This document shows positions 9,969-51,103 of a stretch of 64,000 bases of DNA, piece by piece (the first letter of the stretch is position 1; every line of letters starts with the position of its first letter). Below the pieces are notes generated by a model. It did not search any database and was not told the DNA's origin. It saw only the letters and a list, made by a program, of their open reading frames with translations. A program made the translations under genes and the position numbers. Source of the stretch: Demequina activiva (lineage in GTDB: Bacteria > Actinomycetota > Actinomycetes > Actinomycetales > Demequinaceae); the NCBI RefSeq assembly GCF_016862815.1, contig NZ_BONR01000002.1, positions 124,001 to 188,000 of the forward strand, given 5' to 3'.

Positions 9969-11141
<1,173 letters not shown>

Positions 11142-47128: not shown

Positions 47129-47635
47129 ATGACGCACCTGCGCGCAATCCGAGACGACATCACGACGCTCAAGGTCGACGCGATCGTCAACGCCGCGAAC
47201 GAGACCCTGCTGGGCGGGTCCGGCGTGGACGGCGCGATCCACGCTGCGGCCGGGCGCGGCCTGCACGACGAGTGCCGCGAGCTCGGCGGCTGCGAGCCGG
47301 GCGAGGCCAAGATGACCGGCGGGTACCGGCTGCCCGCCACGCACGTGATCCACACCGTGGGGCCCTTCTGGCGCGGCGGCGGCCATGGCGAGGACCAGGT
47401 GCTGGCGGACTGCTACCGGCACGCGATCGCGCTGGCTGCCGGACATGGACTGCGCACGGTGGCCTTCCCCTGCATCTCCACAGGAACCTACGGCTACCCG
47501 CAGGACTACGCCGCGGAGGTCGCCGTGGCCGCGGTGCGCGAGGCCGTCGAGCAGCACCCGTCGATCGAGGAGGTCACGTTCTGCTGCTTCTCGGACTACG
47601 ACCTCGAGCTGTACGAGGCGCTGATCGCCGACTGA
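47129..47635 (+). CDS. Macro-domain ADP-ribose deacetylase
   Basis: A 168-residue protein: VDAIVNAANETLLGGSGVDGAIHAAAG (Asn and Asp of the ADP-ribose pocket), GYRLPATHVIHTVGP, and ISTGTYGYPQDYAAEVAVAAV. Typical YmdB-like enzyme removing acetyl from O-acetyl-ADP-ribose or ADP-ribose from proteins. GGGAGG is five bases upstream of the ATG. Confidence 0.93.
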   Translation: MTHLRAIRDDITTLKVDAIVNAANETLLGGSGVDGAIHAAAGRGLHDECRELGGCEPGEAKMTGGYRLPATHVIHTVGPFWRGGGHGEDQVLADCYRHAIALAAGHGLRTVAFPCISTGTYGYPQDYAAEVAVAAVREAVEQHPSIEEVTFCCFSDYDLELYEALIAD

Positions 47636-47670
47636 TCTCGCGATGACGGTCGCGCACTAGGGTGTGCCGC

Positions 47671-48000
47671 ATGCACACCCTCCGCGTCATCGCCCTGTTC
47701 GTGCTTGCCGCCTTCGCGGAGATCGGCGGCGCCTGGCTGGTCTGGCAGGGCATCCGCGAGCATCGCGGAGCGGTCTTCGTGGGTCTCGGCGTGGTCGCAT
47801 TGGCGCTGTACGGCGTGATCGCGACCTTTCAGCCGGACCCGCACTTCGGGCGCATCCTCGCGGCCTATGGCGGGATCTTCGTCGCCGGGTCACTGGCGTG
47901 GGGCATCGTGGTCGACAAGTTCCAGCCGGACGTGTGGGACTGGACCGGCGCGGCGCTGTGCCTGCTGGGCGCGGGGATCATGATGCTCGCCCCTCGATGA
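47671..48000 (+). CDS. YnfA-family small membrane protein
   Basis: A 109-residue protein of four transmembrane helices ([23 protein letters not shown] to [18 protein letters not shown]), with the family's AEIGG and [10 protein letters not shown] patterns. Proposed as a small-multidrug-resistance relative; function not settled. TAGGGT (47658-47663) is seven bases before the ATG (leaderless). Confidence 0.88.
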
Positions 48001-48023
48001 CGGGGACGCTCCACGGGCGATGC

Positions 48024-48049
48024 TAGATTGTTCGGCATGCCGAACAATC
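48024..48049 (+). promoter_or_regulatory. Palindromic operator and leaderless promoter on the mntH start codon
   Basis: A 24-bp perfect palindrome (48026-48049), each arm GATTGTTCGGCA, is centred on the mntH ATG (48037-48039). TAGATT (48024-48029) overlaps its left edge as -10, seven bases before the start. Position over the transcription start and a DtxR-family regulator gene next door argue for a manganese-responsive operator. Confidence 0.75.
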
Positions 48050-49425
48050 GCTCCGAGGCGGCCGATGCGGGCGTGACGGGCCGCCCCGGCGCGACCGGGC
48101 GCGGTCCCCGGCCCGAGCATCGGCTGTGGGCCCTGCTCGGTCCCGCCTTCGTCGCCGCGGTCGCCTACGTCGACCCCGGGAACGTCGCCGCGAACCTCAC
48201 CGCGGGCGCCGAGTACGGCTACCTCCTGGTCTGGGTGCTGGTGGTCTCGAACGCGATGGCGGTGCTCATCCAGTACCTGAGCGCCAAGCTGGGCCTGGTC
48301 ACTGGCCGGTCGCTCCCGGAGCTTCTCGGACAGCGGCTGCGCCGCGGCACCCGACTGACGTATTGGGGTCAGGCGGAGGTCGTCGCCGCCGCCACGGATC
48401 TCGCCGAGGTGATCGGCGGAGCGATCGCCCTCCACCTGCTGTTCGGCCTGCCGCTGATCTGGGGAGGGCTCATCACCGGTGTGGTCTCGATGATCCTGCT
48501 GGCGGTGCACTCGCGCCGCGGACAGCGCCCGTTCGAGTTCGTGATCATGGGCTTCCTGGCCATCATCGCTGTGGGATTCCTGGCAGGCCTGTTCGTGTCG
48601 CCCGTGAGCTGGAGCGAGGTCGCCGGCGGCCTGGTGCCGCGCTTCGGCGACGCGGGCACGGTGCTGTTGGCGGCCTCGATGCTGGGCGCCACGGTGATGC
48701 CGCACGCGATCTACCTTCACTCTGCGCTGGCTCGCGACCGGCACCTGCCGGGGGAGCCGGGCGTCGACAACGAGGTCGTGGCCGCCGAGCCGCGGGCGCT
48801 GCCGCCTGGCCAGGGCGTCGGTGGAGCGAACCCCGTCACTGCGGCCGCCGCGGACCCGTCGTGGAAGGATCGCCTGCCGCGACTGCTGCGCGCCACCAAG
48901 GCGGACGTGCTCTGGTCGCTGCTCATCGCCGGGTCCGTCAACATCGCGATGCTGCTCCTCGCCGCGGCGTCTCTGCGCGGCGTGAGCGGCACGGACTCGA
49001 TCGAAGGCGCGCACGCCGCCATCGAGGCCAACCTCGGGCCCGCGATCGGCGTGATCTTCGCGGTCGGGCTGCTGGCCTCGGGACTCGCGGCGACATCCGT
49101 GGGCGCCTACGCCGGCGCGGTCATCATGGGCGGCCTGCTCCACCGGCGCATCCCGTTGCTCACCAGGCGCCTCATCACGCTCATCCCGGCGCTCGTGATC
49201 GTCGGCATGGGCGTCGACCCCACCTGGGCGCTGGTGCTGAGCCAGGTGGTGCTGAGCCTGGGGATCCCGTTCGCGCTCATCCCGCTGGTGCGCCTCACGA
49301 GCTCGCGCGCGGTCATGGGGGAGCACGCGAGCGGCCTGCCGGTGCGAGTGATCGGCTGGGTGGTGGTCGCGCTCATCGTGGCGCTCAACCTCGCGCTGAT
49401 CGTCATCACGATCACCGGCGGCTGA
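48037..49425 (+). CDS. mntH: NRAMP-family manganese/divalent metal transporter
   Basis: A 462-residue proton-coupled importer with about 11 transmembrane helices. The metal-binding DPGN is in VAYVDPGNVAANLTAG (helix 1) and MPHAIYLHSAL (helix 6); the transport signature is in GLASGLAATSVGAYAGAVIMGG. The ATG at 48037 lies at the centre of a palindromic operator. The convergent DtxR-family gene is its likely regulator. Confidence 0.93.
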   Translation: MPNNRSEAADAGVTGRPGATGRGPRPEHRLWALLGPAFVAAVAYVDPGNVAANLTAGAEYGYLLVWVLVVSNAMAVLIQYLSAKLGLVTGRSLPELLGQRLRRGTRLTYWGQAEVVAAATDLAEVIGGAIALHLLFGLPLIWGGLITGVVSMILLAVHSRRGQRPFEFVIMGFLAIIAVGFLAGLFVSPVSWSEVAGGLVPRFGDAGTVLLAASMLGATVMPHAIYLHSALARDRHLPGEPGVDNEVVAAEPRALPPGQGVGGANPVTAAAADPSWKDRLPRLLRATKADVLWSLLIAGSVNIAMLLLAAASLRGVSGTDSIEGAHAAIEANLGPAIGVIFAVGLLASGLAATSVGAYAGAVIMGGLLHRRIPLLTRRLITLIPALVIVGMGVDPTWALVLSQVVLSLGIPFALIPLVRLTSSRAVMGEHASGLPVRVIGWVVVALIVALNLALIVITITGG

Positions 49426-49467
49426 CGCCGCCGCGACCGCACCGACGGATGGGTGACTCCCGCGGCG

Positions 49468-50136
49468 TCACGCCCGCGCTGGAGTCACCCAGATCGCGCC
49501 GGCATCCTCGCCGTCGAGAGCGACGTCGGTGACCACGCCGTCCAGGCGGATGCGCACGCCGTCGACGTCGCTGGCGACCTCGACGCGTGCATCGGGGACC
49601 AGTCCCACCTGGGCGAACGCGCGCAGCCTGTCCGGGTCGTCGTCCGCGATGCGCGCGATGGTCGCAGTGCCGTCGCCGGCCTGTGCGAGCGGCACCGCGT
49701 CCGGCAGGTGCGCGGCGCCGTCCGCGGACGGGATCGGGTCGCCGTGCGGGTCCCGGGTGGGGTGCCCCAGGCGCGCGTCGATGGCGGCCACGAGGCGATC
49801 CGACACCGCGTGCTCGAGCACCTCGGCCTCGTCGTGGACCTCGTCCCAGTCGTAGCCCAGCTCCTGCACCAGGTACGTCTCGAGCAGCCGGTGGCGTCGC
49901 ACCATCGCGAGGGCGTGCGAGCGCCCCGCCTCGGTGAGCGTGATGCCTCCGTAGTGGGCGTGCTCGACCAGGCCGTTGGCGGAGAGCTTCTTGATGCCGT
50001 CGGAGACGGTCGAGGTGCGCACGCCCAGTCGCTCCGCCAGCGCCGTGACGGACACGGGTCCGCTCGCCCACTCCTGGAGGTTCCAAATGCTCTTCAGGTA
50101 GTCCTGGGTGGACGGGGACAGGTCGGTGACAGGCAC
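49468..50136 (-). CDS. mntR: DtxR-family metal-dependent repressor
   Basis: A 222-residue regulator: winged helix (about 1-70, STQDYLKSIWNLQEW, VTALAERLGVRTSTVSDGIKKLSANGLVEH), metal-binding/dimer domain (about 70-140, HRLLETYLVQELGYDWDEVHDEAEVLEHAVSDRL), and a C-terminal SH3/FeoA-like domain (about 155-220). It pairs with mntH by position, so Mn2+ sensing is favoured over iron. GTG start with TAGGAT six bases upstream (leaderless). Confidence 0.88.
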   Translation of the reverse strand: MPVTDLSPSTQDYLKSIWNLQEWASGPVSVTALAERLGVRTSTVSDGIKKLSANGLVEHAHYGGITLTEAGRSHALAMVRRHRLLETYLVQELGYDWDEVHDEAEVLEHAVSDRLVAAIDARLGHPTRDPHGDPIPSADGAAHLPDAVPLAQAGDGTATIARIADDDPDRLRAFAQVGLVPDARVEVASDVDGVRIRLDGVVTDVALDGEDAGAIWVTPARA

Positions 50137-50206
50137 CGTGCCATCCTACGGAAGCGACGCGCACCGCGCCTCGTTCGCGCGAAGGACCCGTGCCGCCCCT
50201 CGCGGG

Positions 50207-51103
50207 TCACGGCACCGGCAGGCCGCCGTTGACATTGATGGTCTCGCCCACCACGTAGCTGGACTCGGGCGACGCCAGGAACACGTATGCGGGAGCCATC
50301 TCGACTGGCTGCCCGGCCCGGCCCAGCGCGGTGTTGTCGCCGAACCCGTCGAGCTTCTCCGGCGGCTGCCCCTCGGTCACCTGCAACGGAGTCCACACCG
50401 GGCCGGGAGCCACCGCGTTGACGCGGATGCCCTTCTCCGCGAGCTGCATCGCGAGTCCCTTGGTGAACCCATTGATACCGGCCTTCGAGGTCGCGTAGTC
50501 CACGATGATCGGCGAGGGCTTGTAGGCCTGCACCGACGTGGTGTTGATGATGGTCGAGCCGGGGCCCATGAGCTGGAGGGCGTCCTGGGTGAGCCACACC
50601 ATGGCGTACAGGTTGGTCTTGAAGGTCCGGTCGAGATCCTCCTCGGTGATGTCCGTGAAGTCCTTGTGGTACTCCTGGTGCCCGGCGTTGTTCACGAGGA
50701 TGTCGAGACCACCCAGGGCGTCCACTGCCTTCGCCACGAGAGTGCGGCAGAAGTCGCGGTGGCGGATGTCGCCGGCGATCAGGATGGCGCGGCGGCCCTC
50801 GCTCTCGATGAGCCCGCCAATGCGCTCGGCGTCCTCCCGCTCGGGCTCGAGGTAGTTGATGACCACGTCCGCACCTTCGCGGGCGAACGCGATCGCGACG
50901 GCCGCGCCGATACCGGAGTCGCCACCCGTGATGAGCGCCTTGCGGCCCTCGAGCCGGCCAGTGCCGCGGTAGCTCTCCTCGCCGTGATCGGCCTGAGGGT
51001 CGAGGTCGCGGTCAAGCCCGGGGAAGGGCTGCTCCTGGGCCTGCGGCCGGATATGCGCGTAGCGCTTGCTCGGATCGTCGAAGGTGAGCTGGTCGAAGGA
51101 CAT
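50207..51103 (-). CDS. Short-chain dehydrogenase, YhdF/general-stress type
   Basis: A 298-residue NAD(P)-dependent SDR with a 50-residue N-terminal extension (QEQPFPGLDRDLDPQADHGEESY) typical of the general-stress-protein 39 group. Motifs TGGDSGIG, NNAG and the catalytic YATSK are present, as is INTTSVQAY (Ser). Substrate unknown. GGGAGG precedes the ATG. Confidence 0.88.
   Translation of the reverse strand: MSFDQLTFDDPSKRYAHIRPQAQEQPFPGLDRDLDPQADHGEESYRGTGRLEGRKALITGGDSGIGAAVAIAFAREGADVVINYLEPEREDAERIGGLIESEGRRAILIAGDIRHRDFCRTLVAKAVDALGGLDILVNNAGHQEYHKDFTDITEEDLDRTFKTNLYAMVWLTQDALQLMGPGSTIINTTSVQAYKPSPIIVDYATSKAGINGFTKGLAMQLAEKGIRVNAVAPGPVWTPLQVTEGQPPEKLDGFGDNTALGRAGQPVEMAPAYVFLASPESSYVVGETINVNGGLPVP

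Follow-up and report, generated by a model that had tools for sequence, protein, structure and literature searches.

The mntH gene of Demequina activiva starts in the middle of a conserved palindrome, which is probably the operator of a manganese-dependent repressor. In the window, by which we mean the whole stretch of 64,000 nucleotides analyzed here, mntH occupies positions 48037–49425 on the plus strand. Its product was identified as an Nramp-family Mn(2+) importer by the models NF001923 (453.3 bits; cut-off 430) and PF01566 (Nramp domain, 362.5 bits; cut-off 29.8). Inspection of the sequence revealed a perfect 24-bp palindrome, GATTGTTCGGCATGCCGAACAATC, at 48026–48049. We propose, with a probability of roughly 0.83, that it is the operator of the Mn-dependent repressor MntR encoded at 49468–50136, and that it lies over the –10/+1 region of a leaderless mntH, where it would serve to block initiation. 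The observations behind this proposal are the site itself, its conservation, its coupling to the reading frame, the spacing of the –10 element, the absence of an SD sequence, and the covariation with an MntR-type protein.

A preliminary description of this DNA had reported a perfect 24-bp palindrome at 48024–48049, centered on the mntH start codon and overlapped in its left arm by the –10. The palindrome exists, but its bounds are 48026–48049; the two extra bases are part of the –10. Its axis runs between 48037 and 48038 and is indeed located within the ATG (48037–48039, plus strand), and the hexamer TAGATT (48024–48029) of the extended –10, TG-C-TAGATT (48021–48029, plus strand), does extend into the left arm. 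Taken alone, the length of the palindrome is only moderately unusual and represents weak evidence, because perfect palindromes of at least 24 bp occurred twice in 60 windows simulated with a first-order Markov model (0.033 per window; GC content of the window, 71%), and because another perfect palindrome of 22 bp is present at 10210–10231. The latter sits in probable coding sequence. These two facts are what can be said for a functionless chance palindrome. Such an origin is contradicted by the conservation of a 16-bp core, which recurs 5′ of mntH across families with its arms kept and with symmetric variants, and we regard it as next to impossible.

By comparison with relatives, the functional unit is the inner 16 bp, GTTCGG-CATG-CCGAAC (48030–48045), rather than the 24 bp, because the four outer pairs are not constant in the 10 Demequina-family genes whose start codon forms the center of the box. 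All four are paired in this genome alone. The best matches of the window's mntH were Demequina records, and among the sampled relatives GTTCGG-N4-CCGAAC or a near variant is a constant element 5′ of mntH in many Micrococcales. The strict pattern GTTMGGNNNNCCKAAC, which corresponds to the proposed MntR site, occurs only once in this genome (2.47 Mb, seven contigs), namely at mntH. In 47 genomes of the family it was found at 33 places, compared with 18 for a reversed control pattern. Twenty-two of these places precede mntH, one is on the start of an ABC transporter gene (genome G046, see below), and 10 are elsewhere; five of the six inspected places elsewhere lay within long open frames. The single one-mismatch match in this genome (C3:139571) is surrounded by sequence that resembles the coding part of a transporter-like gene and is not located 5′ of such a gene, as read by eye in stretch L003 without a gene call. 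A loose search with the core pattern and three mismatches was uninformative, with 158 matches per strand versus 161 for the reversed control.

The arms of the box are kept across families and change symmetrically, as in GTTCGC/GCGAAC and GTTCGA/TCGAAC. Three Demequina mntH genes with such symmetric changes (L071, L073, and L075) also carry a conserved GTATAG upstream, an arrangement that looks as if the operator were placed downstream of the promoter. Another 13 Demequina mntH genes, designated group B, possess GTTCGG-N4-CCTAAC 161–227 bp 5′ of the anchor motif and in varying frame. Boxes away from start codons are likewise conserved.

For the analysis of the start codon, 211 mntH loci were taken, one of which lacked the anchor (L048), leaving 210 loci with 200 distinct proteins and 116 boxes scoring at least 10.8; 137 stretches came from part of the matches listed in an order-wide search. 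Both the box score and the cut-off of 10.8 were chosen by us, and six other cut-offs gave the same picture. Of the mntH genes with these 116 boxes, 25 have ATG or GTG at the box center. In 23 of these 25 the central codon is in frame with, and open into, mntH, compared with 29 of 91 boxes with other centers, which is the one-third expected (Fisher p = 7e-8, a value that ignores the relatedness of the genes). The two out-of-frame exceptions (L239 and L243) both belong to family f6, as does L267, which has the layout but scored 10.4 and was left out of the counts. The 23 in-frame layout genes comprise 10 from the Demequina family, 11 from family f19, and two MAG genes (L025 and L041), and they form three groups on the tree. 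The distance between the box and the DPGN motif takes four values in the Demequina group and eight in family f19. All differences are multiples of three, which is what a translation start at the box would predict.

The layout genes also resemble leaderless genes in their upstream sequences. A TANNNT hexamer ends 5–7 nt 5′ of the central codon in all 23 of them, but in the same place in only 37 of 93 other boxes, against a background of 0.7%. An SD-like 5-mer precedes the codon in none of the 23, whereas in 57 of the 93 others an in-frame start is accompanied by such a 5-mer. This combination of –10 spacing and missing SD sequence is as it should be for leaderless genes, and the window's mntH belongs to the class that displays it. 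The comparison thus supports the earlier suggestion that mntH is probably leaderless. As a consequence of leaderlessness, with +1 at the A of the ATG, the operator axis would lie in the start codon and the right half of the operator would encode codons 1–3 (M-P-N). A consensus scan of 47850–50300 revealed neither a –35 element nor a full sigma-70-type promoter. The lack of a visible –35 would also agree with transcription that begins farther upstream, leaving the operator within a leader, and D. aestuarii and most sampled relatives do look leadered. The upstream stop codon is only 36 bp away from the ATG, however, and together with the uniform TANNNT spacing and the missing SD-like 5-mers of the layout genes this makes a leadered mntH unlikely.

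A quick MntH tree calls for at least six changes in the layout, compared with a minimum of 16 and a mean of 21.3 in 200 label shuffles. It therefore clusters by lineage, with unrooted counts that fit gain and loss alike. Only 10 of the 33 mntH-bearing Demequina-family genomes have the layout, and it is apparently not fixed among close relatives: Demequina aestuarii, the closest named relative (81% identity), groups with the window's mntH on the tree but has TGTC instead of a start codon at the box center and, 30 nt downstream, an ATG preceded by GAGGGG. In family f19, the boxes are arranged in tandem, with a second box 27–32 bp upstream in 10 of the 10 genes scored (perfect or near-perfect in L165, L181, L184, L197, L207, L216, L234, L237, L253, and L259). 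No second box was seen by eye in L221, an f19 gene outside the scored set. The center of the second box is ATG or GTG in two of 10 cases, versus 11 of 15 start-proximal boxes (Fisher p = 0.015). Unlike the f19 genes, the window's mntH has no tandem upstream operator. Six Nramp genes of family f7 (L175, L188, L204, L211, L214, and L218) carry a different palindrome-like element, GTTAATGTACCTTAAC, which lies just 5′ of an in-frame start that reads TTTATG or TTCATG.

The gene at 49468–50136 is located on the minus strand, convergent with and downstream of mntH, and encodes a DtxR-family protein, as the preliminary description had stated. Family membership was evident from the HTH domain PF01325 (Fe_dep_repress, 69.3 bits; cut-off 26) and the metal-binding/dimerization domain PF02742 (Fe_dep_repr_C, 110.1 bits; cut-off 27), and a FeoA domain from PF04023 (35.7 bits; cut-off 23). 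Asp and Glu at the positions of DtxR Met10 and Cys102 mark MntR. The protein has Asp and Glu at these positions (DYLK, HDEAEVLEH), and a second DtxR-family protein encoded in the genome, an IdeR-like paralogue (G000:C1:471213), has Met and Cys (MYLR, HEEACRWEH), as does 7b24. Glu11, a metal ligand in B. subtilis MntR, is replaced by Lys (DYLK), and on these residues we classify the protein as MntR type rather than as a B. subtilis-like MntR. Its scores fell below the cut-offs of the NCBIfam MntR models NF047407 (198 of 350 bits), NF008273 (65.4 of 153 bits), and NF003025 (58.1 of 138 bits). The best solved relative is PDB 5zr4 (E = 1.3e-69), a metal-dependent transcriptional regulator that is presumably M. 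tuberculosis MntR. It shares both the DYLK motif, including the Lys, and the HDEAEVLEH motif. Eight of the 10 layout genomes have mntR as the convergent neighbor, whereas it lies ~2 kb off in G034 and is on another contig in G033. Of the 13 group B genomes, 12 carry it on a different contig, and in G022 the distance is ~680 kb.

The recognition helix of the MntR-type protein and the class of the box agreed in all 28 genomes in which both were seen, out of 33 mntH-bearing genomes. The helix reads R-x-STxSDGxxKL in 10 of 10 layout genomes and SAPTVSENVRKL in 13 of 13 group B genomes, and it differs from both in five genomes with other arms (GTTCGC, GTTCGA, and GTTGGG). The remaining five mntH-bearing genomes are G001 and G015, whose MntR sequences were not included, G040, which has no good box, and G044 and G045, each with mntH and one DtxR-family match (33–34% identity) and without a box (best score 7.7 of 12). 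The agreement between helix and box fits MntR as the binder, although it is confounded with lineage, and it argues for the neighboring regulator as the likely repressor, as had been proposed from the window alone.

The presence of the paralogue, whose Met and Cys residues assign it to the iron type, could instead point to an iron-responsive, IdeR/DtxR-like protein as the ligand of the mntH site, and the group B boxes (GTTCGGCTAGCCTAAC) are partly similar to iron boxes. The DtxR consensus given in the available sections of PMC1382209, however, comprises 19 bp, TTAGGTTAG(G/C)CTAACCTAA, and differs from the even-length mntH site. Furthermore, the box tracks the MntR-type helix, and G044 and G045 combine mntH and their single DtxR-family match with the lack of a box. 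Control by the iron-type paralogue is thus very unlikely. A possible iron-type box, GTTAGGGCACCCTAAC, was noticed in another stretch (L106, 1501–1516) ~24 bp 5′ of a GTG-started open frame that resembles an FTR1-type iron permease by eye.

According to the comparison, the box also occupies the start of a transporter gene that is unrelated to mntH. In G046, a genome without mntH, a substrate-binding lipoprotein of the Mn/Zn type, whose best matches were the EfaA and AztC models, both below cut-off, is encoded by a gene with GTTCGGTATGCCGAAC centered on its ATG. The substrate-binding gene is followed by genes for an ATPase and a permease and, in last position, by an MntR-type gene. The promoter is less clear in this case, because the –10-like TAGAAA lacks the final T.

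The preliminary description had proposed that a repressor site covers the promoter together with the start codon and had added that the transcript might fold into the same hairpin at its 5′ end. While the position of the operator is backed by the comparison, the hairpin was not supported. It conflicts with leaderlessness, because a transcript starting at the A of the ATG contains the right arm only. In the minimum-energy fold of a 60-nt RNA from 48037, the first 11 nt are unpaired. The 24-nt palindrome RNA, for which both arms are needed, gave –13.2 kcal/mol (z = –5.33) with the AUG in the 4-nt loop region. Only read-through RNA from the UPF0060/YnfA-family gene (47662–48000, plus strand; PF02694, 134.9 bits), which ends 36 bp before the mntH ATG on the same strand and is a possible source of such RNA, would contain both arms. 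A Macro-domain gene (47129–47635) lies upstream of the UPF0060 gene on the same strand as mntH. Control at the RNA level, in which a two-arm transcript folds and is poorly translated, would draw on the stability of this hairpin and on the nearby UPF0060 gene. It is at odds with the variable outer pairs, with the upstream genes, which differ among relatives as judged by their last residues, and with the conserved boxes away from start codons, which folding at the AUG leaves unexplained. We therefore consider it highly improbable as the function of the palindrome.

A broader reading would combine both levels, with a start-codon operator that recurs in actinobacterial manganese import and a palindrome that guards the gene as DNA and as RNA. 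An MntR box would then be found on the start of mntH in at least three lineages and on that of an unrelated ABC transporter gene, the resulting N-termini would be M/V-P-N or M/V-P-K, and the AUG would be buried in a hairpin in RNA that enters from upstream, so that only RNA from the repressible promoter is translated well. Taken together, we find this reading doubtful.

In the proposed action of MntR at the DNA level, the operator would overlap the –10 and be centered on +1, the A of the start codon. When Mn(II) is plentiful, metal-loaded MntR would bind as a symmetric complex, cover the region from –10 to +9, and prevent promoter opening or escape by RNA polymerase. When Mn(II) is scarce, MntR would be off, and the leaderless mRNA would be transcribed, with translation beginning at its 5′ AUG. 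We infer MntR binding, its metal specificity, the repression, and the transcription start at mntH from sequence comparisons. If the proposal is true, the –10, the transcription start, the repressor axis, and the start codon are superposed in ~26 bp, and the first transporter residues are dictated by the preference of the repressor. The box would further make leaderless Mn-controlled genes recognizable from sequence alone, so that start annotations can be corrected. It would also allow a test of how leadered promoters turn leaderless with the operator kept, because closely related Demequina differ in their layout.

Similar arrangements have been described for other metal-dependent repressors. 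Our literature search, which did not extend to the primary papers on Corynebacterium and Mycobacterium MntR, yielded no MntR operator with its axis on a start codon. In actinobacteria, MntR is a repressor of mntABCD or mntH, and an operator at the start codon is not mentioned in the available parts of the respective publications (PMC13001254, PMC3022926, PMC5855569). According to the accessible text of PMC5784534, leaderless genes account for 20% of the genes in C. diphtheriae, and the genes repressed by DtxR carry their sites either across the –10 or downstream of the start. The C. glutamicum Zur regulon, as far as covered in the sections at hand (PMC2823685), includes cg0042, cg0043, and cg2911, whose transcription reportedly starts at the A of the ATG. 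As proposed for the mntH site, the Zur motif overlaps the core promoter of leaderless genes; the system differs in that it involves a Zur/Fur-family protein, a 21-bp motif, and zinc. DtxR of C. glutamicum is, like the presumed regulator of mntH, a metal-dependent repressor of the DtxR family with motifs over start codons: in the portions of PMC1382209 available, the predicted motifs of cg3404, cg0160, and cg2311 overlap the start codon, and the leaderless cg0527 has a DtxR site within its promoter that ends 11 nt before the start codon. It differs in its response to iron and its 19-bp iron box, and no symmetry axis is placed on a start codon in these portions. We conclude that this kind of switch is known and that the exact superposition proposed at mntH is a variant of it in compact form.
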